Assembly: GCF_030463535.1 (NCBI RefSeq)
Contig: NC_132878.1
Location: 90,381,507 to 90,445,506, forward strand
Direction of reading: 5' to 3'
DNA length: 64,000 nt
Origin: Salminus brasiliensis
Lineage: Eukaryota; Chordata; Actinopteri; Characiformes; Bryconidae
A program made the position numbers and the translations under genes. The notes under the pieces are model-generated. The model had not been told where the DNA came from, ran no database searches, and was given only the letters and a program-made list of their open reading frames with translations. Of the stretch, positions 27,279 to 64,000 are shown one piece after another. Position 1 is the first letter of the stretch, and every line of letters starts with the position of its first letter.

Positions 27279-27281
27279 AGG

Positions 27282-27545
27282 TCAACACCTAAAATGTGAA
27301 CGACTAATAAAAGCATTGCCCATCACATCGTAGTGGATTCTGATGAGTAGCCTTTCATTGACCACTCCTTCCAGACGTCCCTTACGCTTGGTCATGGGAC
27401 TATTTGGAGATACACTCTTTATGTTTCTCTCTACCATTATTGACTCCTAGTTTCTCAAATGTTCACAATAGTTGTCAGCTAACTGTTTGGGTAGCCCAAC
27501 CGAGAACCAGAAGCTTTTGTACTCGGGCTCCCACCCGGGTCAGTA
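27282..27545 (-). pseudogene. broken copy of an unrecognised conserved ORF (unit A)
   Basis: Same sequence as the open frame at 38694-38945, but the Trp codon of LRNWE is TAG here, and the region upstream is deleted. Ends in the shared IHYDVMGNAF segment. Confidence 0.6.
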
Positions 27546-27739
27546 ATGGGACCAGGTCCAGCCTAGACGTGGGATTAAGGTGGGCTGTAACGATGGGCCC
27601 ATCTGAATTTGTTCAGAACTATAAATAAATAAATGTAACATTAGACATTACTTAAATGTAAATTGAACATTAGACAAACTTCATCAAACACAAAACACAT
27701 TTTTGATGATTATTTTATTTATATGAGGAGCAAATCACC

Positions 27740-27925
27740 AACATGCAAACGATCACCACCCCACCTCCTCCCTAATTCCCCAACTCATTCCAAAAGTATT
27801 GAATGGAGCCCGATCATCATTCCAGAGAACACAGTCACACTGCTCTTAATAAGAGTCTTATTCTATTGCCAGGACTTCTCTACAGGGACCAGACAAGCTG
27901 AATGTGTGCATTTGCATCTGTGTCA
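27740..27925 (+). mobile_element. MITE fragment in unit A
   Basis: Interior of the family at 24621-25115 (GATCACCACCCCACC, CATTCCAGAGAACACAG), with a short deletion. No terminal repeats remain. Confidence 0.7.
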
Positions 27926-27935
27926 AATTATACAC

Positions 27936-28045
27936 ACACACACAGTATACACACCTTATACACACACACTATACACACATTATACACATAATACACAATA
28001 TATATACACATACATACACTATATACACACTATACATACAGCATG
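27936..28045. repeat. CACACTATA-type minisatellite, unit A
   Basis: Irregular tandem TATACACACACTATACACAC units. Expanded at the matching place in unit D. Confidence 0.85.
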
Positions 28046-29940
28046 TACTCACAGTCCAGAATGGGCCAAACATGAATCTATGAATTGTACAGAAGTGTTT
28101 CAGTGTTGTTTTAATGCTAAATGTAATGAATAAAATGTTAAGAAATACATTTATACCATTTCCTCTCATTCATAACTGAGAGAAAAATGAATATTATCAA
28201 TGTTCATTCAGACTAACCGAGTCAGAAAAACAGGTGCTGCTTAAAAGCTGCTTATAGTGAGTACCGTTCAGCTGTGTAAGAGCTGTGTAAATGTACTGCT
28301 GCAGTAATATTTCCCTCAGTGCAGTTTACAGGAAGGGACACATTAGTTGCTATTACATATAAACCCAACATATCAACCAATTCTATTTCCTGTATGTCTG
28401 TTTCCTTTAATGAAAAGAGAGCAGACAGGATCTATAGATATTCATTCCAGGCCTGCACATCACCCGATTTTCCGATTTCAACAGTGTTCAGTCTTGTATT
28501 ACCACAGGATTATACCATAGGGTTGGGCAGTATAAGGGTAATATTGTATACTGCTGTATTTACTGTGTCTGATCTGTCAATCTTCTGCTCTGTTGCTCAA
28601 TAATCCAGGGGTCCATAGAAACAGGGCATTGTGGTAAACTGAGATGTTGGTGCTATTATTGCTAATTGCACACATTTGTAGATGGTGGAGAGGATGGATG
28701 CCAGTTTTTCAAGGTGCTCTCGTGTCTGTGTTATCTTCTGGTTCTCTCCATTTAGTTAAGCTGTTATCGTCAGACTTGCCAGAGTCACAAGCCACATTCT
28801 GCTAATGTCACATTCTCTGTTATCTATAAATGAGAGAATTCATTCCATCTCTTTACTGTTTTCTAAATAAAATGACTGCCCACCTGTCCAGCCTGACACT
28901 GATAGAAGATTATCCGTTAGGCTCTTCTGCTGCCCACCTCAGACCAGCGACTGACCCTCCAGCTACCGCTACCTGCCTCAGACTAGTTGCCCACTTTCCA
29001 TTTTGAACTACATTGAAGTTGAAATGGACTTAAACTATTCATCTACCAATTGCTGCTATTATTATTATTATTATTACTATTATTATATCATAATTACTTT
29101 TATTATTGTATTAACATCACTACTATGACATTATCAGTACACCAAACATAACAAGAAAAATAACTACTCTTTTATAGTTTGTGTAAAGAGCATAGAGAGA
29201 ATAGAGAGGCTAATTTTAATGGTTATTATCTTGTAAATAGGATTTACAGCAGCCTTTGTAAAAGTAAAAGTAAAGCTCAAATAAATTGGGTTGCCAGATT
29301 TGGGCATGGTGCTGCTTTCCTTGTTTCCACTCTAAAACTGTACAAATTTAAATAACATCCCGTTATATAGGATATTATAAGCTATAATTATTATAGCATA
29401 TTGTAGAATATAATCTATAATATATTTCTAACAGTGTAAATAATATAAACTACACATCAGAAGTTTTAACATGTTCTATACAATATTTCAAGTGTGTTTA
29501 ACTTTTGAATTTACTGTGTCTATCTGAAGCATTTTGTTTCCATCATTCCCTTTTCAATATTTCATTACTGACGTAGCTTTTTCTGTGTTCTTTAATCCTA
29601 TGATGTTACAATCATTTAAACCTGTGAAGAACAATGGGTTTTATACTATTGAACAACGATGAAAGTAAGAAAACAAGAAACAGAATTGTTTGTGAATAAT
29701 TATTTATTATAATATTTTACATTTTTATTGATCCTCTATAAGATACTAGAACAGCTGTGTTTTATTAAGGAATATTTATTATTATTGTATTATCTTATAA
29801 TAAAATCTTTCTGATAAATGATCAGCTCTTTAAATTTACACACTCTGGGTCAGTTCTGAGATCTTACACCTGGACTAATCGGAGATTCATCTTCAGAGCT
29901 CAGACTCAGGTAGAGAGATGGTAAATATCTAGTTTTTACT
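28046..29940. other. unit A non-coding spacer
   Basis: AT-rich spacer shared with units B, C and D, including a (TTA)n run near 29056-29085. No gene seen. Confidence 0.6.
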
Positions 29941-31200
29941 CTAGGAGGAAAAAAGAAACTGGCTTTCCTCGACACAATGGAGCAGCAGCTCTACTCTGAG
30001 CCTCTCCGAGATAACAGAAGACTGAGCGGGAGACCACCATGGCCTCAGATCTGGAGGTGCTGATTCTAATACTGACCACTGCAAACTGCTCAAGTGCTGC
30101 TGAAGGCCTTCACACGCAGAAGCCAGCAGGACAATGTCATCTGCAAACAGCAGAAACAAGCCCCCGGCCCCCCGCCTGAAGCCATCCTGCCCATGCCTTC
30201 GCATTGCTATCCTGTCCATGAATATCACAAACAGGAAGTGAGAGAAGGCACAGCTCTGATGGAGTCCAACACCAACACTGAACAAGCTTCAGTGCTGAGA
30301 ATACGGACACAGCTCTCACACCGAGAGTACAGGGACTGCACGACTCGCATCAGCACCTGTCGCACCCCCGATACCCCAGGAGCACTTCCTACAAGATGTC
30401 TTGGGGAACACAGTCGTAAGCCTTCTCCTTCTCCACAAAACACATGTAGACTGGAGTGATGTACTCCCATGTCCCCTCAACAATCTCAGAGAGAGTGAGG
30501 AGCTGGTCCAACGTTCTACAGCCAGGACAGAATCCGCATTACTCCACCTGAATCTGAGGGTTAACTATCAGGTGCATTCTCCTTTGCACTATACTGGACT
30601 AAACTTTCCAGGGAGGCTGAGATATGTGATGCATCAATAATTTGCATGCACTCTCCAGTCCCCTTTCTTAAAAATGGGGACCACCACCCTGGTTAGCCAG
30701 TCCAGAAGCACTGCGCCCGAGGTCCATGCAACACTAGAAAGTGTCTCGACCAAGACAGCCCCCCAATGTCTAGAGCCTTTAGCAACTCTGGGCAAATCCC
30801 ATCTACTCTTGATTTGCCACTGTGTGACTTTCCAGCTACCTCAGTAACCTCAGCCATAAAAGATGGATGATGCCCCAGTAGCCTCCAGCCCTGCCTCCTG
30901 GATAGAAGCCATGTTCCTCGGGTTTAGGAGTTCCTCAAAGTGTTCTATCCAGCACCCAACAATACCCTCAGCTGAGTTCAGAGCTTCAGCACCCTTACTG
31001 AGCACAGTTTGGACAGTGTCGCTCCTTCCCCTTCTGAGTTGTCGGAGTGCTTTCCAGAACCTCCTTGTGGCTGCACTGAAGTCTTTCTCCATGGCCTCTC
31101 CAAACTACTCTGCAATAGCTGTTACCTTTTTTGCCTGCTGCCTCAATGGAATCGAGAGTACCCAGAGCCTTCCTCCACTTGACAGCCTCCCTGATTACAG
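29941..31200 (-). pseudogene. LINE reverse-transcriptase fragment, unit A
   Basis: Minus-strand pieces in order: RFWKALRQLRRGR and EHFEELLNPRNMAS (pre-RT linker), SLYSRCESCVRIL, GVGLHQSCAFS, then LLFADDIVLLAS, the RT catalytic box. Frames are broken by stops and shifts, and the interior of the RT is deleted. Non-LTR clade not assigned. It lies just downstream of the kinase gene in every unit. Confidence 0.8.
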
Positions 31201-31221
31201 GTTGCCATCAAAAGAAGCACC

Positions 31222-31455
31222 AAGTAGTCGAGTCAAATTTGGTTATACTGCTTTTGAGAACCTGATGTTGTTGCAAAGCAGCTTTACAGAAATATGGAAA
31301 TAACAGATCAAACTAATAAATCAATAAATAAAAACAAATAAAATTGTAACCCCAAGTGAGCAAGCCAAAGGCAACAGTGGCAAGGAAAAACTCCCTCAGA
31401 GCTGGAGGAAGAAACCTTGGGAGGAACCAAGACTCACTTTGGGGGACCCATCCTC
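31222..31455 (-). mobile_element. L2-type LINE 3' tail, unit A
   Basis: Matches the tail of the LINE at 56151-56400: GTCAAATTTGGTTATACTGC, GCAAAGCAGCTTTACA, then AACTCCCTCAGAGCTGGAGG. 5'-truncated on the minus strand. Confidence 0.78.
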
Positions 31456-31682
31456 CTCTGATCAAAAAAACCTATAAATTACTAAAAATGGTGTAAAGTC
31501 AGGTGTAAAGGTGTGAATGTAAATGTAAATATAAGTCACCCAAGAGACACTATGAGTGAACCAAGGTACAATCTCTGGGTTTTGAACATGGTGTTTCCTA
31601 TCAGGGACAAATTGTGTGCACTCCAAACCCAAACCTTAGAGGTGGTGGGTCCAGATAGTCGCCCCAAGTTATTTGTTCAGGC

Positions 31683-33966
31683 TCAGGCCAACTGGGGTAA
31701 CCTCAGTTTGAATAATGTCAGTTTGAATAATCTGAAGGGGAGCCTAAGTCTCCAGGTTTCCTGCATCACTGTGGACTGTGGGAGCACAGGCTCTGCTTCC
31801 ACCACCAGCCCATGGAGCAGGATTTTTCCTTCAGAATGGAATCCACCCAGTATGTTATCATTACCGGGAGCCATGAAAGACATCTACAGGGGGTGAACCG
31901 CATTTGTCTTCTTTGGGATCTGTTGGAAGGACAAAAGGACAAAGACTGATCAGACATTTCTGCCCAATATTAAAGTGATTATACAGTGAAAAATCTGGAT
32001 CACTCAGAAATCGACTCACATACCTTAAACTTGGGGAATTTCAGCCTCCTGGATTTCTGCCTCACTGTGGGCTGTGGGAGAACAGCTTCATCCTCAACCA
32101 CCGGCCCACAGAGCAAGATGTCCGAAATCCCATCCTCACAGCTTTGTTTAGAACTGGAAGAAGCAGGAGCTTCTGTAGAGGCAGCACTGGAGGAGTTGTG
32201 CACCTTACAGTTCACTGTGAAGAACCTCTTCATCCTCCCTCGAAGTGACTGGGAGGTTCTGAGGAACGGTGCTACAAGGTAAGCTTTAGCTGCCCTTTTA
32301 ATTGCAGCACAAAGTGGACTGCAGCTGAAGCAGCCACACTCCTCCCCCACCGCCTCTACGCTTCGGGAAGTGAGACTTGCCCCAGCTCTACTGCTGTTGT
32401 CTTCCTGAGGTGAACTGATGTCCTGATGAGAAGTGCTTACCCCATCCTGTTCATCAATGACTTCCACAGTGAACCTGCCTATAACTCTGGGGACATAAGT
32501 AATAAAGAAAAGGTCCTTAGTGTTAGTGAACTAATGCTGTACGTTACCTATTTACAGAACAGCTCTGCACTCTGAGTAACCTTTATCAGTGCATACTATG
32601 TACAGTACACCAAGTGTGTCTCCTTAGTTCCAGTGTTTTCAGAGCTGAGATAGAACACATGGAACAAATGAAGCACTTAATAAATGAATTCATAAGTAAT
32701 ATATATTCATAATAATAAATAAACAAACAAACATACCGTATTTTCTTTAACCGCTTAATGGTGTTCTGCTCATCAGCGTCAGTTTTGGAGGAGAAACCAT
32801 CGACCTTCTCCCAAACATCTACTTTAGGGTGTTCCTTAGGCGTCCCAAACAGATTTTCCTGTGGAGCGCTTTTACCCTCAGCTACAGACGGGCCTGCAGC
32901 CTCACCCGTTTCACTGTTGATGACAATAAAAGAAACAAATTATAAACCAAACAGCTCAAAGAATCTGGGGGTGTTTCACAAAGCAGGATTCTTAGTTCAG
33001 CCAGAAAAGCCCAGATCCCAGCCTGTCCAATAGAAGAAGAGCTGAGGGACATTCCTATCCTCACCATTGGGCTAAAGTTATCTGGCTAGCTGAGAAATGC
33101 TGATTTGTGAAACACCCCCTGCAGATATTTCTAATGCAGCGGTTTGCTTACCATTCTTGACGTGACTGCAGCCATGGGTGCTTTTCCACATCTGTCACAG
33201 ACGGGCGAGTGGAAGGGTCGTACTGCAGCATGTAGGAAATAAAGGCCCGACAGGGCTCCTCCACTGTGATCCCAATTGGATACTGCAGGGCTTTACGCTG
33301 GACTCGTAGCAATTTATGCGCACGCTTTTCTTTAAAGGGCACGGACCCGGTAACCATTTGGTAAAGAACCACTCCCAGGCTCCACACATCACTTTTCTTT
33401 GGATCATAAGGCTGACACCTAATCACCTCCGGTGCAGCGCAGAAAAGAGTGCAGCAATATGTCTCACTCATTTCTGGGAAGCCTTTTGAAAAGCGTGAAA
33501 GACCAAAGTCTGCTAGCTTGACTTGATAATCAGCTGTCAGCAGAACATTTGTACATTTGAGGTCTCGATGCACAATGTCCTGCTTGTGCAGGTAGACCAC
33601 AGCACTGACAAGCTGGGAGAACCAGGTTTTGGCCAGGCCAGTGGGGATGTGGTGGCGCAGCTTGATCTCCCGTTTGAGATCGCTTATAGCAGCTTCCATC
33701 ACGATACAGACCTGTCCGTTATTCATCTTAAGAATGTTGTGCACCTCAACAATGTGAGGGTGCTTCACTTTTTTCAGAATGGCGAGTTCCCGGGGCAGAT
33801 ATTTCTGAACTAAAGTACTTGACCCCCTCCTGCTGTCTATTATTTTAATAGCCACCATGTTGGGGTGCTTTTCAGAGGTGGCCAGTTTAACCTGGCCAAA
33901 ATTCCCTTCACCTATTTTGCGCAGCACCGTGTAGCCCATTCGTCTCAGGACTGTCTCAGTGGCCAT
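31683..33966 (-). CDS. TSSK6-like serine/threonine kinase, copy A
   Basis: Testis-specific serine kinase family, closest in my reading to TSSK6, which acts in spermatid chromatin and sperm maturation. Exons (minus strand): 33966-33152, 32913-32737, 32486-32024, 31883-31683; 551 residues. Kinase motifs are complete: GEGNFG 19-24, K41, E60, HRD 133-135, N140, DFG 153-155, APE 178-180. The first exon seems to end in TAA after residue 272, but that TAA lies inside the donor TG|GTAAGC, and splicing continues in frame. The C-terminal extension of about 280 residues has a Cys-rich patch (CGCFSCSPLC) and a basic helix-like stretch, and I do not recognise it. The activation loop reads YCCTLFCAAPE. Mammalian TSSK6 is intronless and about 273 residues. 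The last exon starts at a TAG acceptor; a nearer upstream CAG would end the protein after IPKKTNAVHPL. Confidence 0.85.
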
Positions 33967-34170
33967 TTACTCCCTGTGGATCAAAAGAGAAGCTGAAAGT
34001 TAGAAAGTTTTAAAAGAGAATCAGATGTAGAACCTGTTTCTGGTTCTAGATAAGATGGCCCTAGATAACTGTGTTAACCAAATGACATCACTGTCATTTA
34101 GACCGTAGAAATCAAGTGTCTCGAGAGCTGCTGAATCCTTGACTGAGCCAATGAGGGAGAGAACACCCCT

Positions 34171-34262
34171 TTTATAGGGTTCTGTGATGTCATCGGTATG
34201 ACATCACAATGGAGAGGTGAGCTGGGGTCAGTGAGGTCAGTTTCTTCATTGGCTGTACAGGA
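34171..34262 (-). promoter_or_regulatory. kinase copy A core promoter
   Basis: Read on the minus strand toward the gene: CCAAT (34262-34258), a direct repeat of TGACCY half-sites spaced by 3 (34239-34225), a 24-bp imperfect palindrome with TGATGTCA and TGACATCA CRE-like cores (34207-34184), then TATAAA (34176-34171). The ATG is 205 bases after the TATA box. The spacing is that of a compact TATA promoter; CRE-type sites bound by CREM are typical of spermatid genes. Confidence 0.72.
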
Positions 34263-34268
34263 CTGTAT

Positions 34269-34270
<2 letters not shown>

Positions 34271-34322
<52 letters not shown>
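34271..34322. repeat. (AC)26 upstream of kinase copy A
   Basis: Pure AC run of 52 bp, ten bases beyond the CCAAT box. The equivalent runs in the other copies are shorter. Confidence 0.97.
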
Positions 34323-34324
<2 letters not shown>

Positions 34325-34399
34325 TGCTGTGAAAATGTGTCAAAATAAAAGTCACACAAACAAAACAGAAATACAAAATTCTTTCAAACTAAAAGCTAA

Positions 34400-35914
34400 A
34401 ATTACTGCTGCACATTTGTGTGCCCTTTTTTGTGCTAATCTGAAAAATGATCTGGAATTTTTTTGTGATGCGTTACACCACTACCTCTGACAGAGACCCA
34501 GCTTTTTGACACTAGGCTCTACCTTGAACTCCAAAATACTTTGACAGTCTTCAGATTTATGTAGCACCTGTGCTTACTAAAAGGAGTAATAAAAGTGTCA
34601 CTAACATCTAACTAGGTTCGGTCAGCGGCATGTCTTTAAATCAGAGACAATTTGACGGGAAGTTGAAGGATTAACACATTTATTGCTCCACAAATGATGC
34701 AATAAAACATTCAGCGCTGATTTTATAAAATAAAGAAGAATAATGAAGTAAAATAGAGCTCTTTCAAACAAAATAGAAAAAACGGTTTCGAATAGGAAAA
34801 TAGGGAGGAGTCCCTTTTATGAAAAACACACTGTCCCTTAATTAAGTGGAGTTCCGGATCCAAGATAGAGTTCAGTTCGTATCCTTCAATGGATGTAGTG
34901 AAGGAATGATGCTTAATGCGGTTATGACTGTGTCTAAGACCTGTCTACCCGGGTAGGATAAATGGTATGCTTAAGGTCTTATATGCTGTCGTATAAGCAA
35001 CTGGAGATATCCGAAAGTTCTTCTGCAGGCAGTCGTACGGTAGGCCACACCGCTTCTACAACCATCAGCAGTCTCACTGCGCTGGACTCGCCATCAGACC
35101 ATTTCCCCACTCATTTTCTGGCTCTAGAAAAAAAAACAATCTACACAACAGTGCAGTACAGTAAATTATTCTGTTTCTAACATAAGATCTCATGAACTCT
35201 TTCTCTTTCAGTTCAGAATAACATGTTACAACCAACTAATGGTATACTTACAAAATATGAACTGGCTTTTTAAACATCACAGCAACATTAATATTTAATC
35301 ATGTAAGGAATTACCATACATCACAATAACAATTTAGTATTTTATCAATGACAATGAATTGCTGTTTTACTGTTTTTATCTATTTTAATCTGCAACTAAT
35401 ATTTTTATCCTTTTTAACATTCATTTGAATAAAACCATAGCTACACTTATTTAAAGTGCACATTCTGATATCCATAATATATCCAATAACAACATTACTT
35501 ACACTATAAACCATTAAAGTACATAAAATCAACCAACAAATGTTATAAAGCTCATCAAAATACATGTACTGTCACTTTAAGGCTTCACTAGGCTAGTGCT
35601 GGTACTAACCGACTAGCCTTAACGTAAGGTGAAATCTCCCATTCAGAGTTTAGCCAAGATAGCAGAGCAAAGGAATTGCTGCTCTGACTCACCGGAGCTC
35701 TTTAAACACTTTAAATACTCGACGGAAATACTCGACAGAACTGCTTCCTTTCAGGCTTTATAGCTGAAATACTGACATAAGAGCAGCGTATTAGTCTTAG
35801 TATATGACAATATTCAACATTTTAGGGGTATTATGCAATATTTTCGTACCAGGAATCTTCTATCTACCGCAGCACGATGCACACGCGGTTCTACCATCAG
35901 AGAAAAAAGGAAAG
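34400..35914. other. unit A distal flank, no gene
   Basis: Shared with 54480-56150 of unit C. AT-rich, with no convincing coding frame. B lacks the part after about 34550. Confidence 0.55.
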
Positions 35915-36042
35915 ACGATAGAAACCACTTCTTTTACCACTATAGACGCACGGACAATGTATGGTGCCCTCGTTTGGATGCTACATGCTATTGCTCTTCT
36001 AAATGATATATGGGGTTCTGGTAGCTCCATATTTCATAAGGG

Positions 36043-36588
36043 TTACACCAGGAAGGGGATCTCGCTGACATGGAATACACATTTCTGTAATTTAGCGTAT
36101 AGCAGGTGGGCCCTGAGCCTCGCCAGGACCAGTTGAACATGACGAACATGCGTGGGCAGGTCGGGGAAGTGCACTAGAATGTCGTCCAGAAAGACCACCG
36201 AGAAGCGTCCGAGGTAGTCTTTGAGGACGTCATTGATGAATGCCTGGAAGACGGAGGGAGCGTTAGCTGACCCGTACAGCATGACCCGGTACTGGTAATG
36301 CCCCCTGGTGGTCATGAACGCCATTTTCCACTTGCCCCCCTCCCTGATGCGTACTAAGTTAAGATCTAATTTCGTAAAGGTCCGGGCTCCCCACAACTGT
36401 TCGAGGGCGGACGGGACTAACAGCATAGGATAAGGATATCTCTCTGTGATAGTGTTGAGTGCCCGATAATCAATGCATGGCCTCAACCCACCTCCCTTCT
36501 GCCGGATTAAAAAGAACCCTGAAGCCACCGGAGACTTGGATGGGGTGATGTATCCCTGAGCTAATGCTTCTGTAATATAGTCCTCCAT
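36043..36588 (-). pseudogene. gypsy reverse-transcriptase fragment
   Basis: Motifs in order: [47 protein letters not shown], and FLDDILVHF, the RT catalytic box with both Asp present. It ends shortly after, at the edge of the element. A stop near 36589 separates it from the protease region. Confidence 0.82.
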
Positions 36589-36759
36589 TGCCCGCTACTA
36601 TTCCCCGTGAGGGGGTAGATCCAAGCTTTGGGCAATGTGGCCGCTCCACTAGATCAATCGCGCAATTGTACGGGCGATGAGGGGGGGAGCTTAGCGGCAC
36701 TGGATTTACTGAACACGTCCTGCATATCGGCATACTCTGGGGGCAGCACTACTAAGTTC

Positions 36760-37203
36760 TCAGGTTCGGGGCTCTCTACAGAGGTCGACATGTGGGATGT
36801 GCAGTCGTTCCACGATGTCCGCTTGCAGGAAGCTGCCCTCCGCTCCGCAGTCGATCAGTCCTGTAACAACAACAGACTGGCCCTGGTAGGATATCCTTAC
36901 AGGCAACGTGATCGACCGGGAGACGAGTCCCTGGACGAGAACACTCACCGAATTGCCAACCGGATACGAAGTAAGGGAAGTCGTGACAGGGCTGGGAGGA
37001 CTAGTAGGCTCTAACGAAGACTGGACTAGTTTTGTGAGCCCTTGAACTGCTGCTGGTCCGCCTGTTGCTGCACCAGGTGACCAACAGTCTCTGACACACT
37101 CTGCAGAGTGAGCTGCTGTTGCCCCAGGAATTGATCTTCGGCGCGAACAGCCTGATTCAAGGCTCTCCGCTGTTCGGAGGCTGTCTGCCGAGAATTCTGT
37201 CAT
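36760..37203 (-). pseudogene. gypsy gag/protease fragment
   Basis: Contains VTGLIDCGAEGSF, an aspartic-protease active-site block in which the usual DSGA reads DCGA. The beginning also encodes a gag-like QQQ-rich stretch in another frame. Truncated and frameshifted. Confidence 0.65.
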
Positions 37204-38021
37204 GACTGGTTAGGTCTGACTACGAGGGCGAACACTCGCAGGGGATGGTCCAAAGCAAGAACGTTTAGTAAAACAATAAACTCAAGAAAAAGCAGCAAAC
37301 TTACAGAGACAAAGGATAAACCAAAATACAGCCGTGACAAATGAACTTGAGCAAAATAAAGGTGCACACCTGAGGATGATGAGACACTAGGGGCTAGGCT
37401 AGCATGGCGGGATTGAGTTGTAACTATAACACTAACCAAAACCTACAGACAGTGCCTGGGGAAACTAGTGACTTGAGAGCTGAGAGATCAGCTGCCGAAC
37501 CCAAAAGACAGAACCGATATGATAACGAGGCTCGCCCATGAACGGTACCACTAGCGTGAACCTGGATAGAGAGGAAGCCTTTCTCCGACGACCTCGTGGG
37601 TAATAGGACCGTGAACTTGAACCTTGTCGCCCTTGGTTAGTTAGGCTATGCCTATGCAAACAGTACCATGAATACCGAAACTACCTTAGCTGGGTACTGT
37701 CCGTACACTGAGTATGGCTCTACGAGATCCCGTCACTACCACGAACAACAGTGGTAGTTGGCTCAGTGACTTTGGCTCAATTCTCGGCAGTGGGCAGCTA
37801 GTGCTAGCCCCTAAATATCCCAGCCTCAGGTGAAACGTATTAATCAGACAATGAACATAAATGAACTTAACCGTGAAGGAAAACCTGAACATAAGTGTCA
37901 ACATAAGAGTCTGTGAAGCTTGACTTAAACGTGACTGTCAATATAAACGTCCTCATGAGAGCCTGCTGGCCGCGGCTCAAGACCGTCCCCAGAGCGGGCG
38001 CGGCGACGCGGGCGTGACATT

Positions 38022-38095
38022 TAAGTTATTTCTGTGACCATTGTGGGTTTTCCTTTCATTAACCCAGGGGTACCAACAATTTTGTCCACGTGTGT
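38022..38095 (-). mobile_element. Tc1-like element end
   Basis: The minus strand reads CACACGTGGACAAAATTGTT, then GGTACCCCTGGGTTAATG, a Tc1 terminus of the same family as 47455-47797 but inverted. Directly abuts the gypsy relic. Confidence 0.65.
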
Positions 38096-38244
38096 ATAGT
38101 GCAATAACACACATGCTGCTCTCGTACATACTTCATATATCCCCACCGGCCCTGCTTACGTTTATTTATTGTTTGTTGTTAATAGATCTTCTGTTGTTAT
38201 GCTCATGGTAATATGTGAACTTCAATGTAGTGACATTGTCAGAG

Positions 38245-38390
38245 TGTGGCTAGTGCGGCAGATCAGACTATAACAGTCTAACTAAAAAAGGAGAGCAAGA
38301 AGGTAACTCAGATACAGGAGCACCCTGAAATACTGTCATCCCTCCACTCCACCGTCCACAAACATGAGTGATCTTGTGGAAGCAGCAAGA
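38245..38390 (-). mobile_element. L2-type LINE 3'-UTR-like fragment
   Basis: Matches 56756-56880 of the larger LINE (GACTATAACAGYCTAA, GGAGCACCCTGAAA, CTCCACCGTCCACAAAC). Confidence 0.6.
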
Positions 38391-38394
38391 CAAT

Positions 38395-38690: not shown

Positions 38691-38693
38691 AGG

Positions 38694-39229: not shown

Positions 39230-39345
39230 TCACCACCCCACCTCCTCCCTAATTCTCCAACTCATTCCAGAGAACACAGTCACACTGCTCCACAGCTCAG
39301 TGCTGGGGGGCTTTATACTCCTCCAGCCCACTCCTGGCATTAGGC
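39230..39345 (+). mobile_element. MITE fragment in unit B
   Basis: Same MITE interior as in unit A, with CTGCTCCACAGCTCAGTGCT retained and a different deletion. Confidence 0.7.
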
Positions 39346-51799: not shown

Positions 51800-54083
51800 T
51801 CAGGCCGACTGGGGTAACCTCAGTTTAAATAATGTCAGTTTGAATAATCTGAAGGGGAGCCTAAGTCTCCAGATTTCCTGCATCACTGTGGACTGTGGGA
51901 GCACAGGCTCTGCTTCCACCACCAGCCCATGGAGCAGGATTTTTCCTTCAGAATGGAATCCACCCAGTATGTTATCATTACCGGGAGCCATGAAAGACAT
52001 CTACAGGGGGTGAACCGCATTCGTCTTCTTTGGGATCTGTTGGAAGTACAAAAGGACAAAGACTGATCAGACATTTCTGCCCAATATTAAAGTGATTATA
52101 CAGTGAAAAATCTGGATCACTCAGAAATCGACTCACATACCTTAAACTTGGGGAATTTCAGCCTCCTGGATTTCTGCCTCACTGTGGGCTGTGGGAGAAC
52201 AGCTTCATCCTCAAGCACCGGCCCACAGAGCAAGATGTCCGAAATCCCATCCTCACAGCTTTGTTTAGAACTGGAAGAAGCAGGAGCTTCTGTAGAGGCA
52301 GCACTGGAGGAGTTATGCACCTTACAGTTCACTGTGAAGAACCTCTTCATCCTCCCTCGAAGTGACTGGGAGGTTCTGAGGAACGGTGCTACAAGGTAAG
52401 CTTTAGCTGCCCTTTTAATTGTAGCACAAAGTGGACTGCAGCTGAAGCAGCCGCACTCCTCCCCCACCGCCTCTACGCTTCGGGAAGTGAGACTTGCCCC
52501 AGCTCTACTGCTGTTGTCTTCCTGAGGTGAACTGATGTCCTGATGAGAAGTGCTTACCCCATCCTGTTCATCAATGACTTCCACAGTGAACCTGCCTATA
52601 ACTCTGGGGACATAAGCAATAAAGAAAAGGTCCTTAGTGTTAGTGAACTAATGCTGTACGTTACCTATTTACAGAACAGCTCTGCACTCTGAGTAACCTT
52701 TATCAGTGCATACTATGTACAGTACACCAAGTGTGTCTCCTTAGTTCCAGTGTTTTCAGAGCTGAGATAGAACACATGGAACAAATGAAGCACTTAATAA
52801 ATGAATTCATAAGTAATATATATTCATAATAATAAATAAACAAACAAACATACTGTATTTTCTTCAACCGCTTAATGGTGTTCTGCTCATCAGCGTCAGT
52901 TTTGGAGGAGAAACCATCTACCTTCTCCCAACCATCTACCTTAGGGTGTTTCTCAGGCATCCCAAACAGATTTTCCTGTGGAGCGCTTTTACCCTCAGCT
53001 ACAGACGGGCCTGCAGCCTCACCCGTTTCACTGTTGATGACAATAAAAGAAACAAATTATAAATGAAACAGCTCAAAGAATCTGGGGGTGTTTCACAAAG
53101 CAGGATTCTTAGTTCAGCCAGAAAAGCCCAGATCCCAGCCTGTCCAATAGAAGAAGACCTGAGGGACATTCCTATCCTCACCATTGGGCTAAAGTTATCT
53201 GGCTAGCTGAGAAATGCCTCTTTGTGAAACACCCCCTGCAGATATTTCTAATGCAGCGGTTTGCTTACCATTCTTGACGTGACTGCAGCCATGGGTGCTT
53301 TTCCACATCTGTCACAGACGGGCGAGTTGAAGGGTCGTACTGCAGCATGTAGGAAATAAAGGCCCGACAGGGCTCCTCCACTGTGATCCCAACTGGATAC
53401 TGCAGGGCTTTACGCTGGACCCGTAGCAATTTATGCGCACGCTTTTCTTTAAAGGGCACGGACCCGGTAACCATTACGTAAAGAACCACTCCCAGGCTCC
53501 ACACATCACTTTTCTTCGGATCATAAGGCTGACACCTAATCACCTCCGGTGCAGCGCAGAAAAGAGTGCAGCAATATGTCTCACTCATTTCTGGGAAGCC
53601 TTTTGAAAAGCGTGAAAGACCAAAGTCTGCTAGCTTGACTTGATAATCAGCTGTCAGCAGAACATTTGTACATTTGAGGTCTCGATGCACAATGTCCTGC
53701 TTGTGCAGGTAGACCACAGCACTGACAAGCTGGGAGAACCAGGTTTTGGCCAGGCCAGTGGGGATGTGGTGGCGCAGCTTGATCTCCCGTTTGAGATCGC
53801 TTATAGCAGCTTCCATCACGATACAGACCTGTCCGTTATTCATCTTAACAATGTTGTGCACCTCAACAATGTGAGGGTGCTTCACTTTTTTCAGAATGGC
53901 GAGTTCCCGGGGCAGAAATTTCTGAACTAAAGTACTTGACCCCCTCCTGCTGTCTATTATTTTAATAGCCACCATGTTGGGGTGCTTTTCAGAGGTGGCC
54001 AGTTTAACCTGGCCAAAATTCCCTTCACCTATCTTGCGCAGCACCGTGTAGCCCATTCGTCTCAGGACTGTCTCAGTGGCCAT
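51800..54083 (-). CDS. TSSK6-like serine/threonine kinase, copy C
   Basis: Exons (minus strand): 54083-53269, 53030-52854, 52603-52141, 52000-51800; 551 residues. Very close to copy A (differs in the kinase exon at F56, V79, V203 and V231) and shares the TLFC activation loop. The last base of exon 2 is A rather than G, so the junction codon becomes CAA (Gln) instead of CGA (Arg) and the donor context is weaker (ACA|GTATGT). All four exons are open. Confidence 0.85.
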
Positions 54084-54288
54084 TTTCTCCCTGTGGATTA
54101 AAAGAGAAGCTGAAAGTTAGAAAGTTTTGAAAGAGAATCAGATGTAGAACCTGTTTCTGGTTCTAGATAAGATGGCTCTAGATAATCGTGTTAACCAAAT
54201 GACATCACTGTCATTTAGACCGTAGAAATCAAGTGTCTCGAGAGCTGCTGAATCCTTGACTGAGCCAATGAGAGAGAGAACACCCCTT

Positions 54289-54380
54289 TTTATAGGGTTC
54301 CGTGATGTCATCGGTATGACATCACAATGGAGAGGTGAGCTGGGGTCAGTGAGGTCAGTTTCTTCATTGGCTGTACAGGA
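54289..54380 (-). promoter_or_regulatory. kinase copy C core promoter
   Basis: TATAAA at 54294-54289, CRE-like palindrome 54325-54302, DR3-like half-sites and CCAAT as in the other copies. Confidence 0.7.
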
Positions 54381-54388
54381 CTGTATGT

Positions 54389-54416
54389 ACACACACACAC
54401 ACACACACACACACAC
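54389..54416. repeat. (AC)14 upstream of kinase copy C
   Basis: Pure AC run of 28 bp at the same relative position as in copy A. Confidence 0.97.
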
Positions 54417-54479
54417 GGTGCTGTGAAAATGTGTCAAAATAAAAGTCACACAAACAAAACAGAAATACAAAATTCTTTC

Positions 54480-56150
54480 AAACTAAAAGCTAAAATTACT
54501 GCTGCACATTTGTGTGCCCTTTTTTGTGCTAATCTGAAAAATGATCTGGAATTTTTTTGTGATGCATTACACCACTACCTCTGACAGAGACCCAGCTTTT
54601 TGACACTGGGCTCTACCTTGAACTCCAAAATACTTTGACAGTCTTCAGATTTATGTAGCACCTGTGCTTACTAAAAGGAGTAATAAAAGTGTCACTAACA
54701 TCTAACTAGGTTCGGTCAGCGGTATGTCTTTAAATCAGAGACGATTTGACGGGAAGTTGAAGGATTAACACATTTATTGCTCCACAAATGATGCAATAAA
54801 ACATTCAGCGCTGATTTTATAAAATAAAGAAGAATAATGAAATAAAATAGAGCTCTTTCAAACAAAATAGAAAAAATGGTTTCGAATAGGAAAATAGGGA
54901 GGAGTCCCTTTTATGAAAAACACACTGTCCCTTAATTAAGTGGAGTTCCGGATCCAAGATAGAGTTCAGTTCGTATCCTTCAATGGATGTAGTGAAGGAA
55001 TGATGCTTAATGCGGTTATGACTGTGTCTAAGACCTGTCTACCCGGGTAGGATAAATGGTATGCTTAAGGTCTTTTCTGCTGTCGTATAAGCAACTGGAG
55101 ATATCCGAAAGTTCTTCTGCATGCAGTCGTACGGTAGGCCACACCGCTTCTACAACCATCAGCAGTCTCACTGCGCTGGATTCGCCATCAGATAATTTCC
55201 CCACTCATTTTCTGGCTCTAGAAAAAAAAACAATCTACACAACAGTGCAGTACAGTAAATTATTCTGTTTCTAACATAAGATCTCATGAACTTTGTCTTT
55301 CAGTTCAGAGTAACATGTTACAACCAACTAATGGTATACTTACAAAATATGAACTGGCTTTTTAAACATCACAGCAACATTAATATTTAATCATGTAAAG
55401 AATTACCATACATCACAATAACAATTTAGTATTTTATCAATGACAATAAATTGCTGTTTTACTGTTTTTATCTATTTTAATCTGCAACTAATATTTTTAT
55501 CCTTTTTAACATTCATTTGAATAAAACCATAGCTACACTTATTTAAAGTGCACATTCTGATATCCATAATATATCCAATAACAACATTACTTAAACCATA
55601 AACCATTAAAGTACGTAAAATCAACCAACAAATGTTATAAAGCTCATCAAAATACATGTACTGTCTCTTTAAGGCTTCACTAGGCTAGTGCTGGTACTGA
55701 CCGACTAGCCTTAACTTGGCGATTAGCGCTAGCTAGCGGTTAGCATCGGCCTGCGATTAGCAGTAACCATCTCTTTTTACTAAGCACTAGAACATTTTCA
55801 TAACTCTGATTGGTTTTTTATTTCCCCCATTTCTCTTGCATAATATCTAACTTTAATACAGTAAGGTGAAATCTCCCATTCAGAGTTTAGCCAAGATAGC
55901 AGAGCAAAGGAATTGCTGCTCTGACTCACCGGAGCTCTTTAAACACTTTAAATACTCGACGGAAATACTCGACAGAACTGCTTCCTTTCAGGCTTTATAG
56001 CTGAAATACTGACATAAGAGCAGCGTATTAGTCTTAGTATATGACAATATTCAACATTTTAGGGGTATTATGCAATATTTCCATACAGGAATCTTCTATC
56101 TACCGCAGCACGATGCACACGCGGTTCTACCATCAGAGAAAAAAGGAAAG
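54480..56150. other. unit C distal flank, no gene
   Basis: Matches unit A. Holds an extra GCTAGC-rich segment at about 55717-55862 and ends where the LINE is inserted. Confidence 0.55.
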
Positions 56151-56972
56151 TCAAGTCAAATTTATTTGTATAGCTTTTTACAACTGTTGTCGTCACAAAG
56201 CAGCTTTACATAATTAGTACTTAATAAAGAACAGAGACAGAGAAGAAAGAAGGAATAACATAAGGCGTCAAAGACCCCAGTGAGCAAGCCAACTGCGACA
56301 GTGGCAAGGAAAAACTCCCTCAGAGCTGGAGGAAGAAACCTTGGGAGGAACCAAGACTCACAAGGGGGACCCGACCCATCCTCCTCTGATCAGACTGTTT
56401 TAAACATTAATGATAAAAATTACCAAACCAGATACAACAGAAAGTTGATAGTGGTGATATTAATAGTGTCAGACAGGCACGAGTCCATCTAGGTTTCAGC
56501 ACGGCCACCAAACAGGCAGCAGCGGCTGGCGGGTGAGCCATGGGTGGTGGCGGGTTGGGGGGGGACCCGCTGGCCGGACTGGTAGGTGGCAGCTGGTTAG
56601 ATGCAGGTAGAGGGGACCTCAGCGGGCAATCTTCCTGCAGATCGGGCTGGGTGGCCATTTACTCGGGGAAGGTAAAGAGAGAGAAGTTAGTTCTAAGAGG
56701 AATTTTATGGAGTGCAGAGAATGTTGAGAATCAGCATCTGGGTATGTCTGACGACTCCGGCAGGTCTGACTATAACAGCCTAATTAAAAGGAGAGAGCCA
56801 GAAGGTAACACAGACACGGGAGCACCCTGAAAACGCCTGCATCTATCTGCTCCACCGTCCACAAACCTGAGTGATCGCATGTAAGCAGCGAGACGACAGC
56901 TCCAGCATCTCAGTATACTACAATTCCCTGGGTCCGCGAACCCCTGGACCTGCAGCCCTTATCTAAGAAACA
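56151..56972 (-). other. LINE 3' UTR
   Basis: Non-coding. Holds the tail shared with 31222, 43126 and 51340, and the segment shared with 38245-38390. Ends with GTCAAGTCAAATTTATTTG on the plus strand. Confidence 0.7.
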
Positions 56973-59945
56973 TTAATTACCAAAAGCTAAACTAAACATA
57001 TGAGTTTTCAGCTTAGATTTAAAGATTGAGACTGTGTCTGAGTCCCGAACATTATCTGGAAAGTTATTCCAGAGTTGGGGGGCTTTATAAGAAAAGGCTC
57101 TTCCCCCTGCTGAGGTTTTCTGAATTTTGAGAACGAGTAAGTTTCCAGCACCCTGAGATCTAAGTAGTCTTGATGGTTCGTAATATGTAATAAGATCCCG
57201 CAGGTACTCAGGAGCGAGGCCATGTAGGGCTTTATATGTTAATAGAAGAATTTTGTAATCAATACGGAATTTAACTGGGAGCCAATGAAGTGCTGATAGA
57301 ACTGGACTGATATGGTCAAATCTTCTAGTTTTAGTAAGGACCCTGGCTGCAGCATTTTGAACCAGCTGAAGTTTATTGAGGTTCCTGCTGGAACAACCTG
57401 ACAGTAGTGCATTACAGCAATCTAGTCTTGAGGTAATAAAAGCATGTACTAGTTTTTCTGCGTCCTATAGAGATAAGGAGTTTCTTAGTTTGGAGATGTT
57501 CCTAAGCTACATAAAGGCTGTTCTACTAATATTGGCTATATGCTGCTCAAATGATAAATCTGAGTCGAATATGACACAAAGATTTTTAGCTGCTAGATCA
57601 GGAATGATGGAAGCATCAGCCAAGTCTAACATTAAGTCTGATAGTTTATTTCTAGAGTCTTTTGGACCTAAAAGGAGAACCTCGGTTTTGTCACTGTTGA
57701 GAAGAAGGAAGTTATGTGACATCCAGAGTTTTATATCTTTTACACAGTCCTCCATTTACTGTAATCTAAATTTATCGTCAGGTTTGGCTGATATATAGAG
57801 CCATGTGTCATCTGCAAAACACTGGAATTTAACCCCATGTCTGCTTATAACTGAGCCCAGTGGTAATTTGTAAAATGTAAATAATAGTGGTCCTAAAATT
57901 GAGCCTTGCGGAACTCCATATCTTACTTCTACATAGTTTGAAGATAAATCTTTGTTCTTCACGAACTGATAGCGTCCAGTTAGATAAGATTGGAACCATG
58001 ATAGGACTGTTCCTGTGATTCCAACCATTTTCTCTAATCTTTCTAGTAATATAGTATGATCTATTGTAGCAAAGGCTGCACTAAGGTCTAGTGGGGCTAA
58101 TAAAGATACATAGCCTTGATCAGAGGCATGAAGGAGATCATTTGTAATTTTCACTAGGGCTGTCTCTGTGCTGTAAATGGGTCTGAATCCAGATTGGAAT
58201 TTCTCATACATGTAATTTTTACTCAGGTATAAGCAGAGTTGTTGGGCCACAGCTTTTTCTAATATCTTAGATACGAAAGTTAAGTTGGAGATGGGTCTAT
58301 AATTAGACAATACACTAGGATCAAGATTTGGTTTCTTGAGTAAAGGTTTTATGACTGCTATTTTAAGGGTTTGGGGTACATGCCCAAGGCTAAGGGATGA
58401 ATTTACAATTGTTAAAAGAGGTCTGATTATGATTGGGAGAATTTCTTTTAGTATGTTAGAGGGAATTGGGTCAAGTGCCCAAGTTGTACAATTTGCTGAG
58501 GAAATAATTTTTTCTAGTTCTGGCTGTGGAAGTGGGTAGAAGGCTTCCAGCCTTTGTTCTACAACTAAGTTATGTTCTAAAACAGCTCCACCAGGTGACG
58601 GCCATGTTTGATTTAATAAGCAGGGTTGGATTTGTTGTCTAATATTTTCTATTTTATTATTAAAATAATTCATAAAAACATGACTGGTTAAAGATGTTGG
58701 AATCTGGGGTTGAGAATCTGCCTGGCTTTTAGTAAGTTTAGAGATCTCACTAAAAAGAACTCTGGGATTGTTTTTGATTTTCTCGATCAGCGAGGCCAAA
58801 TACGCTGAGCGAGCTTTAATGAGTGCATTTCTATATTGACTAAGGCTGTCCTTCCAGTCAGAGTGGAACACCTCTAGTTTGGTCGTCCGCCATTTACACT
58901 CTAGTTTCCGCACTGATTGTTTTAAGGTACGAGTTTGATCACTGTACCACGGTGCGAGCCTTTTTTGCCTTGTCATTTTACTTTTAAACGGTGCTACTTT
59001 GCTTAAGGTTGATCGAAGGGTATTTTCTAGATCATTTGTTAATTTAATGAGCTCCGTTTGGTCTGATGGAGTGTGAGCTAAGGTCAATAGGGATAGGAGT
59101 TTTTCAGTAAACTGTACAGCTGTCATTGGGGTTACTGTGCGCTTTAGACAGTGTTGGGGAGAAGAATTAACATTTTGCCTAAGATGTAGCTCAAAGGAGA
59201 TTAGATAATGGTCTGATATTACTGAGCTCTGAGGTACAATATTTAGATGATCAATGCTCACACTCAGGGTCAGGACTAGATCTAGGGCATGGTTACAGTA
59301 ATGTGTGGGTCCAGTTACGTTTTGTATGATTCTGACAGAATCTAAAACTGATACAAACACCTTTGTTAATGGATCATCTGCTTTTTCAAAATGAATATTA
59401 AAGTCTCCTACTATTATAACTTTGTCGCTGCACACTGCCAAGTCTGCAGCAAAATCACTAAATTCTTTTATAAATTCAGAATATGGCCCTGGAGGCCTAT
59501 AGATATTAATTAGTGTGAATGCATTTTTATTTGTGGCTGAATTTGATATATTAATGTAGAGAATCTCAAAAGAAGTGAAGGTGTTACAGTGTTTTTGAAT
59601 AATATCTAGTGTATTCTGATAGATTATATATACTCCACCTCCTCTGCCTGATAATCTAGGGCTATGTACATATTTATAACCTGCAGGGGTGGCTTCATTT
59701 AGTGCTACATATTGATCAGGTCTAATCCAGGTTTCAGTGAAGCAGAGAACGTCTAGTTTCTGATCACATATAATTTCATTTACAATAACTGCTTTCGAGT
59801 TTAGTGATCTAATGTTAAGTAGACTTAGCTTTAGGTCTGAGTTGCTGCTGTTATCGTTTGATTGTGAGAATTTAACACTGATTAAATTATTAAAATGATC
59901 TGATCTAGATGTTCTATGTTTGGGTTTAATTCGGGGCACAGACAC
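56973..59945 (-). pseudogene. LINE ORF2: endonuclease and reverse transcriptase
   Basis: Open for 729 codons, then broken by stops at 57756-57758 (TAA), 57507-57509 (TAG) and 57465-57467 (TAG), continuing in the same frame to a final TAA at 56973. Endonuclease motifs: LLNIRSLN, TETW, GDFNIHF, SDHYLISF. RT motifs: NYRPISNL, FQSGFRP, LDLSAAFATIDH (usually AFDTIDH), GVPQGSILGP, CFADDTWLY. The C-terminal domain with LHWLPVKFRIDYK follows the stops. The stops make it inactive unless read through. Confidence 0.88.
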
Positions 59946-60052
59946 AGTCTCAATACAGTGAAACCTGGGTGACGCCTCAAAGCAGCTCTCAGACGGTGGG
60001 TTTAGCCTGTCTGTCTGCGGCCTGGTCTCGGCTCTGGATTGTCAGCAGCCTT

Positions 60053-60962
60053 TTACACTCCTCTGCGACTAACTAGCAGACTGTGGGCTATGCTGCACGA
60101 AAGTGGGGCAGCACCCTTCCGTGTGGGGTGGACGCCATCCCTACCTAAAAAAACAGGCTTGCCCTCAAACTTTAACCAATTATCTATGAAGCCCACATGA
60201 TTTTCTGAACACCACTTGGACACCCAGCGGTTCAGCACCGCGCCTCATTGGGATGGGACCAGAGCAAATTACAGCATCTGACATCGTCTGGGCCAGTTTA
60301 ACCACCTCTTTATTATTATCCTTACCCTATTATATATTATCCTTCATAACTTCTGACTGCCGCAGACGAATATCATTGGCCCCTACATGAATAACTATCC
60401 TTGAATATCTCCTGTTTGCTAACCGCTTAAGGTTGCCGCTAATGTCCGGTGCTCTGGCTCCCAGTAAACGGCTAACGGTCACTGCTGGAGCCCCTAAAGG
60501 ACTAGCTATCTTCACGTGAACAATAGAGTCTCCTATTACCAGAGTACTGTGAACAGGCTCCTCAGCGGGTGTTTCGCTGAGCAGGGCAAACCTGTTTGAC
60601 ACGCGAATCGGGGGGGGAGTGTGATGTTCCGGTGGGCTAGCTTCGGCCTTAGCGCTAGCATTAACCTTAGCTTTCCGACTATGCCGCCGAGACATCACCC
60701 ATTCGCCCTGTTATGAGGGCTCTAACGCCGGAGTGGGGGGTGCTGGCTCTCCATAAGGCATCCGGGGCTACTCCTGCTCTCTATCCTTCAGTAACCCCAT
60801 GATGCTCACCTCTAACTGCTCCACCTTTTCCACCAGAGAGCTAACTAACTCACATTTAGTACAAATGCTATCCTTATCACTAGTGGTGGAAAAAGGGTCT
60901 AGACTAAACATGCCACACTTCTCACGCTCAAAAAGTCCAGCAACAGCCATCATAAAATACAC
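60053..60962 (-). pseudogene. LINE ORF1: coiled coil and SGNH-esterase-like
   Basis: Three open pieces: 60962-60768 with a CTKCELVSSLVEKVEQLE coiled-coil-like start; 60698-60330 with the esterase blocks LVIGDSIV and HVGANDIRL; and 60238-60053 with GRDGVHPTRKGA, the His block. Stops and shifts separate them. Esterase-type ORF1 proteins are known in L2 and CR1 LINEs. Confidence 0.78.
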
Positions 60963-61241
60963 TTACTGCTTTCAGCTGATTTGGGCACAGAAATAAAGGT
61001 TGTTGTAGGGGTACTCCGCTGTTCAGTCTTTTTGTAAAACTGTGGACTGTAAACACAACCTAAAAGCAGTTACCACAAAGTAGATGACTAAACAGATATA
61101 AAAAATAAGCACTAGAAAGTGATAGAAAGCAGAAAACACAAGATAAACACGGAGACAGTGATTTCTCCAAGGTCCGGGTCAGGAGTCAGGATTTCCCACA
61201 AGGGTTAGCGGCAAGGGTCCAGTCCAGCGGGCAGCGGGTCA

Positions 61242-61500
61242 ACACCTAAAATGTGAACGACTGATAAAAGCATTGCCCATCACATCGTAGTGGATTCTGA
61301 TGAGTAGCCTTTTATTGACCACTTCTTCCAGACGTCCCTTACGCTTGGTCATGGGACTATTTGGACATACACTCTTTATGTTTCTCTCTACCATTATCAA
61401 CTTCCAGTTTCTCAAATGTTCACAATAGTTGTCAGATAACTGGGAACCAGAAGCTTTTGTCCTCGGGTTCCACGTTCCCACATGTGTATGCCCACCAGAG
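61242..61500 (-). CDS. unrecognised ORF at the left edge of unit D
   Basis: Homologue of 38694-38945 with DNYCEHLRNWKLIMVERNIK and IHYDVMGNAF. A small deletion removes the GLPKQLA segment, and the frame is open into a different upstream context. Function unknown. Confidence 0.35.
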
Positions 61501-61739
61501 TCAGTAATGGGACCAGGAGGAGTAAAACATGGGCATTCTACAATGTATTTGGAGCCTAGAAATGGGATTAAGGTGGGCTGAAATGATGGGACCATCTGAA
61601 TTTGTTCAGAACTATAAATTAATAAATGTAACATTAGACATTACTTAAATGTAAATTGAACATTAGATAAACTTCATCAAACACAAAACACATTTTTGAT
61701 GATTATTTTATTGATATGAGGAGCAAATCACCAACATGC

Positions 61740-61995
61740 AAACGATCACCACCCCACCTTCTCCCTAATTCTCCAACTCATTCCAGAAGTACTGAATAGA
61801 GCCCCATCATCATTCCAGAGAACACAGTCACACTGCTCCACAGCTCAGTGCTGAGGGGCTTTATACCCCTTCAGCCCACTCCTGGCATTAGGCAGCATGG
61901 TGCTAATAGGTTCATGTTTATCTGCTCTTGCTAAGAGTCTTATTCTATTGCCAGGACTTCTCTACAGGGACTAGACAAGCTGAACTTGTGCATTT
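61740..61995 (+). mobile_element. MITE fragment in unit D
   Basis: The longest of the three unit copies, retaining most of the interior up to the word CATTTGCATCTGTGTC. Confidence 0.7.
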
Positions 61996-62013
61996 GCATC
62001 TGTGTCAAATTAT

Positions 62014-62248
62014 ACAATCACACACAGTATACACACCTTATACACACACTATACACACATTATACACACACTATACACACACTATTCACACATTATACAC
62101 ATAATACACACCTTATACACACACTATACACACATTATACATACATTATACACATAATACACTATATACACACACTCTGCGCACATGCACACACTATACA
62201 TATATTATACATACACTATACACTATACACACACTATACATACAGCAT
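62014..62248. repeat. CACACTATA-type minisatellite, unit D
   Basis: Same array as 27936-28045 but more than twice as long. Units B and C lack it. Confidence 0.88.
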
Positions 62249-62964
62249 GTACTCACACTCCAGAATGGGCCAAACATGAATCTATGAATTGTACAGAAGT
62301 GTTTCAGTGTTGTTTTAATGCTAAATGTAATGAATAAAATGTTAAGAAATACATTTATACCATTTCCTCTCATTCATAACTGAGAGAAAAATGAATATTA
62401 TCAATGTTCATTCAGACTAACCGAGTCAGAAAAACAGGTGCTGCTTAAAAGCTGCTTATAGTGAGTACCGTTCAGCTGTGTAAGAGCTGTGTAAATGTAC
62501 TGCTGCAGTAATATTTCCTCAGTGCAGTTTACAGGAAGGGACACATTAGTTGCTATTACATATAAACCCAATAGACCAATCAACCAATTCTATTTCCTGT
62601 ATGTCTGTTTCCTTTAATGAAAAGAGAGCAGACAGGATCTATAGATATTCATTCCAGTCCTGCACATCACCCGATTTTCTGATTTTACTAATGAGCTCTC
62701 CTCAGTGAAGGAGACCACCATTCTGCTGCTTAACAAAGAAGTGAAGCAAATTAGAGAAATTAGTATTGTGGTGCATGGGTGGAAATAAGACTTGTGAACA
62801 ATGCAGCAGCCGATGGATCCAGATTAGTGCAGATACTCCGACCCTCGGCTCCCCGGCTCCCCTCAGTGAGGATTAGGCTTTAGATTAAGGCACTCATTTA
62901 AATCACCATTAAAAAAATCCTTCTTTGGATATTTTCTGTTAATATGCTATTATTATTATTACTA

Positions 62965-62995
<31 letters not shown>

Positions 62996-63849
62996 TATTA
63001 TATCATATTTACTTTTATTATTGTATTAACATCACTATAATGACTTTATCAGTACACCAAACATAACAAGAAAAATAACTACTCTTTTATAGTTTGTGTA
63101 AAGAGCATAGAGAGAATAGAGAGGCTAATTTTAATGGTTATTATCTTGTAAATAGGATTTACAGCAGCCTTTGTAAAAGTAAAAGTAAAGCTCAAATAAA
63201 TTGGGTTGCCAGATTTGGGCATGGTGCTGCTTTCCTTGTTTCCACTCTAAAACTGTACAAATTTAAATAACATCCCTTTATATAGGATATTATAAGCTAT
63301 AATTATTATAGCACATTGTAGAATATAATCTATAATATACTTTCAACAGTGTAAATAATATAAACTACACATCAGAAGTTTTAACATGTATATAATATTT
63401 CAAGTGGGTTTAACTTTTGAATTTACTGTGTCTATCTGTAGCATTTTGTTTCCATCATTCCCTTTTCAATATATCATTATTGACGTTGCTTTTTCAGTGT
63501 TCTTTAATCCTATGATGTTACAATCATTTAAACCTGTGAAGAAAAATGGGTTTTATACTATTGAACAAGTAAGAAAGTAAGAAACCAACAGACAGAATTG
63601 TTTGTGAATAATTATTTATTATAATATTTTACATTTTTATAGATCCTCTATAAGATACTGGAACAGCTGTGTTTTTTTAAGGAATATTTATTATTATTGT
63701 ATCATCTTATAATAAAATCTTTCTGATAAATGATCAGCTCTTTAGTTTTACACACTCTGGGTCAGGTCTGAGATCTTACACCTGGACTAATCTGAGATTC
63801 ATCTTCAGAGCTCAGACTCAGGTAGAGAGATGGTAAATATCTAGTTTTT
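62249..63849. other. unit D non-coding spacer
   Basis: Matches the spacers of the other units, with a deletion joining 62940 to the (TTA)n run at 62946-63000. No gene seen. Confidence 0.6.
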
Positions 63850-64000
63850 ACTCTAGGAGGAAAAAAGAAACTGGCTTTCCTCGACACAATGGAGCAGCAG
63901 CTCTACTCGGAGCCTCTCCGAGATAACAGAAGACTGAGCGGGAGACCACCATGGCCTCAGATCTGGAGGTGCTGATTCTCATACTGACCACTGCAAACTG
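63850..64000 (-). pseudogene. LINE fragment, unit D, cut by window end
   Basis: The end-most 150 bases of the shared LINE fragment (GGAGGAAAAAAGAAACTGGC onward); the rest lies beyond the window. Confidence 0.7.

Follow-up and report, generated by a model that had tools for sequence, protein, structure and literature searches.

A recent tandem array of long-tailed, TSSK6-derived kinase genes in Salminus brasiliensis and the characin subfamily to which it would belong

The window analyzed here, i.e., a whole stretch of 64,000 nucleotides from Salminus brasiliensis, probably carries a tandem array of recent origin, whose genes belong to a characin kinase subfamily that derives from TSSK6; for this array we propose an origin, a mode of spread and a role in sperm. 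The features on which this reading is based are listed in Table 1.

Table 1. Features of the tandem kinase array and its surroundings (positions are those of the window)
Feature	Position	Strand	Details
Unit 1	27275..38679		core 28479-35623; self-BLAST
Unit 2	38680..47793		core 40380-46417; self-BLAST
Unit 3	47794..61224		core 48615-55715; self-BLAST
Unit 4	61225..64000		window end precedes any kinase exon; self-BLAST, last 1 kb 95.9-96.5% identical to other units
Kinase gene copy 1	31884..33966	-	coding exons 33966-33152, 32913-32737, 32486-32024, 31919-31884; 496 aa; Pfam Pkinase E 7.4e-64
Kinase gene copy 2	43776..45832	-	coding exons 45832-45018, 44771-44613, 44363-43916, 43811-43776; 485 aa; Pfam Pkinase E 3.6e-66
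Kinase gene copy 3	52001..54083	-	coding exons 54083-53269, 53030-52854, 52603-52141, 52036-52001; 496 aa; Pfam Pkinase E 1.3e-63
Copy 1 promoter-like block	34083..34206	-	CRE-like sites 34199, 34185, 34083; TATAAAAG at 34169
Copy 2 promoter-like block	45949..46073	-	CRE-like sites 46066, 46052, 45949; TATAAAAAG between
Copy 3 promoter-like block	54200..54324	-	CRE-like sites 54317, 54303, 54200; TATAAAAAG between
Retrotransposon-like remnant downstream of copy 1	29941..31155	-	RVT_1 E 4.2e-4, below Pfam cut-off, for 29941-30288 only; matches ends of P0001, P0013, P0026
Reverse-transcriptase ORF in unit 1	36043..36588	-	Pfam RVT_1 E 1.7e-20
LINE ORF (endonuclease + RT) in unit 3	57756..59945	-	Pfam Exo_endo_phos and RVT_1

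A preliminary description of this DNA had proposed three intact minus-strand kinase genes starting at 33966, 45832 and 54083, and our exon models and open frames bear this out. The ends it had assigned (31683, 43575 and 51800) did not stand, the stops that match the conserved end of the family being those at 31884, 43776 and 52001. In these four-exon models the introns are 238-246, 249-250 and 104 bases long, and copy 2 differs from copies 1 and 3 by two length differences, of 18 and 15 bases, both in-frame. As the description had also stated, the catalytic residues are present in every copy: GEGNF at 19, VAIK at 38 (Lys41), Glu60, HRDLKCTN at 133, DFG at 153 and APE at 178 are kept in all three. 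Among the best matches listed, the nearest public protein was P0001, from S. brasiliensis, with a kinase 99.6% identical to that of copy 2; the next-best of the listed matches were also from Salminus. P0001 supports the splice models, because its exons agree with them as far as the end of exon 3; its last exon is different, and enters a retrotransposon-like remnant downstream. The ORF of exon 3 did not match any Pfam family. Two other readings of the locus were ruled out, i.e., an array of pseudogenes (all three frames are open) and a single long gene in which exons are repeated (a promoter block and a stop are found in each unit).

The units were described at first as near-identical and 8 kb long. 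That they form a recent tandem array was confirmed, but near-identity is confined to cores of 6-7 kb in units 1-3 (95.9-97.0% identical by self-BLAST), while the blocks that start the units (27275, 38680 and 61225 onward) are 83.8-97.0% alike, varying by piece. Nor is there an 8-kb period: the gene starts are spaced by 11,866 and 8,251 bp, and the segments that units 3 and 4 have in common are offset by ~13.8 kb. The unequal spacing is partly due to insertions, i.e., the RT ORF in unit 1 and the LINE in unit 3. A fourth unit, previously placed from 61236, does start there (at about 61225-61237), but a fourth gene is not within the window, because the window ends ~1.8 kb before the kinase exons of unit 4 would begin. 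When the three cores were aligned, the three possible pairings were favored by 72, 67 and 57 informative sites, and the favored pairing shifted along the unit. This pattern fits a near-simultaneous origin of the units with later exchange between them. It is very unlikely that the array is an assembly artefact, in which haplotypes or repeats were joined in tandem: although units that are 96-97% alike might be expected from such an error, the window has zero N bases, the units have insertions of their own and are distinguished by many sites, two haplotypes could not supply three gene copies and a fourth unit, and one more copy, not identical to these, appears to be represented by P0001.

To the left of the array, in 1-27274, no kinase relic was found by tblastn with 120 proteins, which at that sensitivity gave nothing below 30175. 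This part of the window contains a locally repeated block at 873-4047, in which an 85-bp unit is present in 3.5 copies at 1627-1926, and a tandem array at 15083-15443 with a unit length of 35-48 bp and abundant CCTAACCC, which resembles an interstitial telomere-like repeat and which accounts for a 269-aa ORF at 14879-15688. Rfam and tRNA scans of the window found nothing.

The kinship of the genes with TSSK6 (testis-specific serine kinase 6, also called SSTK) was evident both from structure matches and from the tree. The top solved-structure matches were TSSK6 in 8otz and 8iyj, at 275 and 271 bits, as against 151 bits for MARK2, the next kinase. In a tree of 77 rows rooted on TSSK1, the 54 rows from Salminus, Astyanax and the window formed one clade (support 100/100) within the TSSK6 group, with all 19 other TSSK6 rows, including those of Pygocentrus and Hoplias, outside it and no Salminus or Astyanax row in the canonical TSSK6 group. 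This tree was built without P0083 and P0099, which had very long branches in an earlier tree; there both sat inside the same clade, which had a support of 100/98. Three well-supported clades mixed the two species (P0012 with P0129; P0008/P0013 with four Astyanax rows; P0021/P0022 with P0033). Several paralogues thus predate the Salminus-Astyanax split; the other clades were of a single species, and duplication therefore continued in both lineages.

Thus, while the window kinase domains resemble TSSK6 in their position in the tree, their structure matches and their full set of catalytic motifs, the genes differ from it in having a new tail, four coding exons and many dispersed paralogues. They encode proteins of 485-496 aa rather than the compact, tail-less ORF of ~273 aa typical of TSSK6, and they lie within a multi-copy Salminus and Astyanax clade rather than being one-to-one orthologues. 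The initial view of the locus as an amplified small TSSK6 gene was accordingly right about the kinship, but what was amplified is a member of a long-tailed, multi-exon, dispersed offshoot family.

In the family, a tail that ends near RFPKFK follows the kinase and contains a cluster of Cys residues and a basic helix; exons 3-4 of the window genes match these tails. A tail-only protein search, which relies on shared exact words, returned seven proteins, all from Salminus and including the query, and we therefore used a profile. Built from 13 Salminus tails, this matched 13 of 15 Astyanax rows (E 5.9e-26 to 1.8e-6), the other two being P0053 (E 1.4) and P0078 (not listed), and it matched none of 113 control kinases (best E 0.69). 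Rows of 290 aa or less, i.e., 5 of 20 from Astyanax and 35 of 148 controls, were excluded from this test, among them most of the canonical TSSK6 rows, whose length leaves no room for the tail. Since they form one clade and share a tail, we conclude that a tailed offshoot of TSSK6 predates the Salminus-Astyanax split and kept duplicating.

Pfam searches with ten family members returned kinase-related families together with weak or repeat-driven matches. An AlphaFold2 model of P0006 (30 sequences, mean pLDDT 68.9) was confident for the kinase and mostly below 50 in the tail, with the exception of one helix at 405-439 (block means 64-84). The tail helix was basic and amphipathic in seven of nine members checked, the strongest moment lying elsewhere in P0004 and P0001. 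From these predictions, the tail may serve as an anchor to a membrane or an acidic surface. A GRFxV motif, which we take to be similar to the RFxV docking motif for SPAK/OSR1, occurs in 17 of 28 Salminus rows and in none of 15 Astyanax rows, and thus does not define the family; window exon 3 (32486-32024, with copies in units 2 and 3) has it as GRFTV.

The family is large in both species. Two whole-database protein searches, with the best 120 matches listed, gave at least 31 protein clusters (90% identity) in S. brasiliensis, on at least 15 contigs told apart by their length (one of 212 kb, the other fourteen of 28.9-99.4 Mb), and at least 20 clusters in Astyanax mexicanus, of which 10 had a contig, each of a different length. 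These clusters are not a count of genes, because several of them are near copies of one another or may be isoforms (P0008/P0013, P0016/P0020, P0018/P0019/P0023 and P0010/P0131). Pygocentrus nattereri (P0124, 267 aa) and Hoplias malabaricus (P0031, 273 aa), which like Salminus (Bryconidae) belong to the suborder Characoidei, had one cluster each among the same 120, and related animals mostly had one small gene among the matches listed. The array, the clade and these counts together uphold the earlier suggestion of recent tandem duplication within a lineage-specific expansion. Catalytic motifs were tabulated for 28 of the 31 Salminus and 15 of the 20 Astyanax clusters, and are altered in some paralogues (HCD in P0017; DFG lost in the second domain of P0002). 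P0002 and P0003, both from Salminus, have two kinase domains per predicted protein.

Annotated TSSK6-like or uncharacterised proteins of the two fish (e.g., P0001-P0023, P0024 and P0035) share the clade and the tail with the window genes, but their database names are piecemeal, some being TSSK2-like, S6-kinase-like or MARK3-like, and a description of them as one family was not found. Likewise, among the open-access literature matches listed there was no paper on this kinase expansion. A comparative genomic study reports 162 significantly expanded families in S. brasiliensis, and the words kinase, testis and TSSK are absent from its main text (PMC13071475); an account of Astyanax B chromosomes includes a protein-kinase gene, ENSAMXT00000043499.1, among those it lists (PMC7509943). 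Lineage-specific kinase expansion is a known phenomenon; the family and its tail look new.

The array is accompanied by retrotransposon pieces. The remnant downstream of copy 1 has counterparts at ~42080-43056 in unit 2 and ~50299-51271 in unit 3, each 1-2 kb downstream of the kinase; its remaining pieces had no Pfam match. Three of the nine family protein ends examined (P0001, P0013 and P0026, on three contigs) match the remnant with order and orientation preserved, and the end of P0009 enters an endonuclease-like piece with a weak match to the unit 3 LINE (E 0.002). The kinase and the retrotransposon may thus have spread together.

Selection on the window copies was estimated from their pairwise differences. 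For the whole protein, Ks was 0.030-0.038 and Ka/Ks was 0.35-0.45; by region, Ka/Ks went from 0.21 in the tail to 0.74 in the kinase, both for copies 1-2, with one-sided Fisher p values of 0.016-0.029 for three pairs that are not independent. Open frames alone prove little, because 36-67% of copies would stay stop-free under random substitution at the observed levels. These values are modest evidence of mild constraint. They bear on a possible, if less likely, explanation of the whole family as neutral birth-and-death, in which DNA rich in repeats is free to duplicate and the resulting copies, redundant or in decay, have no special role in sperm. The abundance of retrotransposon pieces in the units, the weakness of the constraint and the altered catalytic motifs of P0017 and P0002 would all be in keeping with this; however, all three window copies are intact with in-frame indels only, and Salminus and Astyanax share conserved tail motifs.

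Upstream of each gene, in a layout that is nearly unchanged between the copies, TGATGTCA and TGACATCA start 14 bases apart and are followed ~16 bases on by a TATA box and then by a third CRE-like site. Nine of the 12 TGAYRTCA sites in the window fall inside these three promoter-like blocks, which count as one observation because they are copies of each other. Spermatid promoters use CRE sites (CREM). Together with the known biology of the TSSK family, the promoter features point toward male-germline expression, and by analogy the window copies would be sperm kinases expressed in testis. Mouse TSSK6 is located, together with EFCAB3 and CFAP97D1, on the outside of the seam of the sperm doublet, and males in which it is knocked out are infertile (PMC13066092).

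We propose that the array arose in four steps. Before the Salminus-Astyanax split, as the tree and the tail profile show, a copy of TSSK6 gained 3' exons for a tail of ~200 aa, predicted to be disordered apart from one conserved basic helix. The tailed kinase then multiplied and scattered over many Salminus and Astyanax contigs, as is shown at the level of protein clusters and contigs. One member duplicated again in tandem in the genome that the window represents, the mosaic histories of the units fitting unequal exchange or gene conversion. Finally, we infer that the CRE/TATA promoter drives expression of the copies in spermatids and that they serve as sperm kinases; their kinase domain would function like that of TSSK6, and the tail would tie each paralogue to a membrane or an acidic surface. 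As for the driver, we favor birth-and-death turnover with males in competition; neutral turnover is a close second.

Genetic conflict would be another possible driver. Smok (sperm motility kinase) is a multi-copy rodent family, and its likeness to the fish kinases is one of description, Smok being a spermatid kinase and the fish copies putative ones. In the mouse, Smok1-Tcr, a mutant form of this kinase, is the responder of the t-haplotype and acts as a dominant-negative spermatid kinase (PMC3305403). Some fish copies might by analogy be selfish sperm kinases that bias transmission, and a multiplying family with sperm kinases as relatives and altered catalytic motifs in some paralogues would suit this; with all catalytic motifs kept in the three window copies, however, we regard it as quite improbable. 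A broader version, which we consider a long shot, is an arms race among characin sperm kinases: a tailed TSSK6 copy would have escaped single-copy constraint and spread over at least 15 Salminus contigs with its downstream retrotransposon, perhaps via read-through transcripts in male germ cells, and competing or dominant-negative kinases would bias fertilisation, as a fish counterpart of Smok/Tcr.

Under the preferred reading, i.e., turnover under competition among males, as under its rivals, the family poses the question of whether adaptation, drift or conflict is the driver. The window copies are distinct enough for copy-specific RNA-seq, and the tailed kinase family is also carried by Astyanax, an established laboratory fish. 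With dozens of clusters, the tailed kinases of these fish would provide a natural test of how sperm kinases duplicate and diverge.
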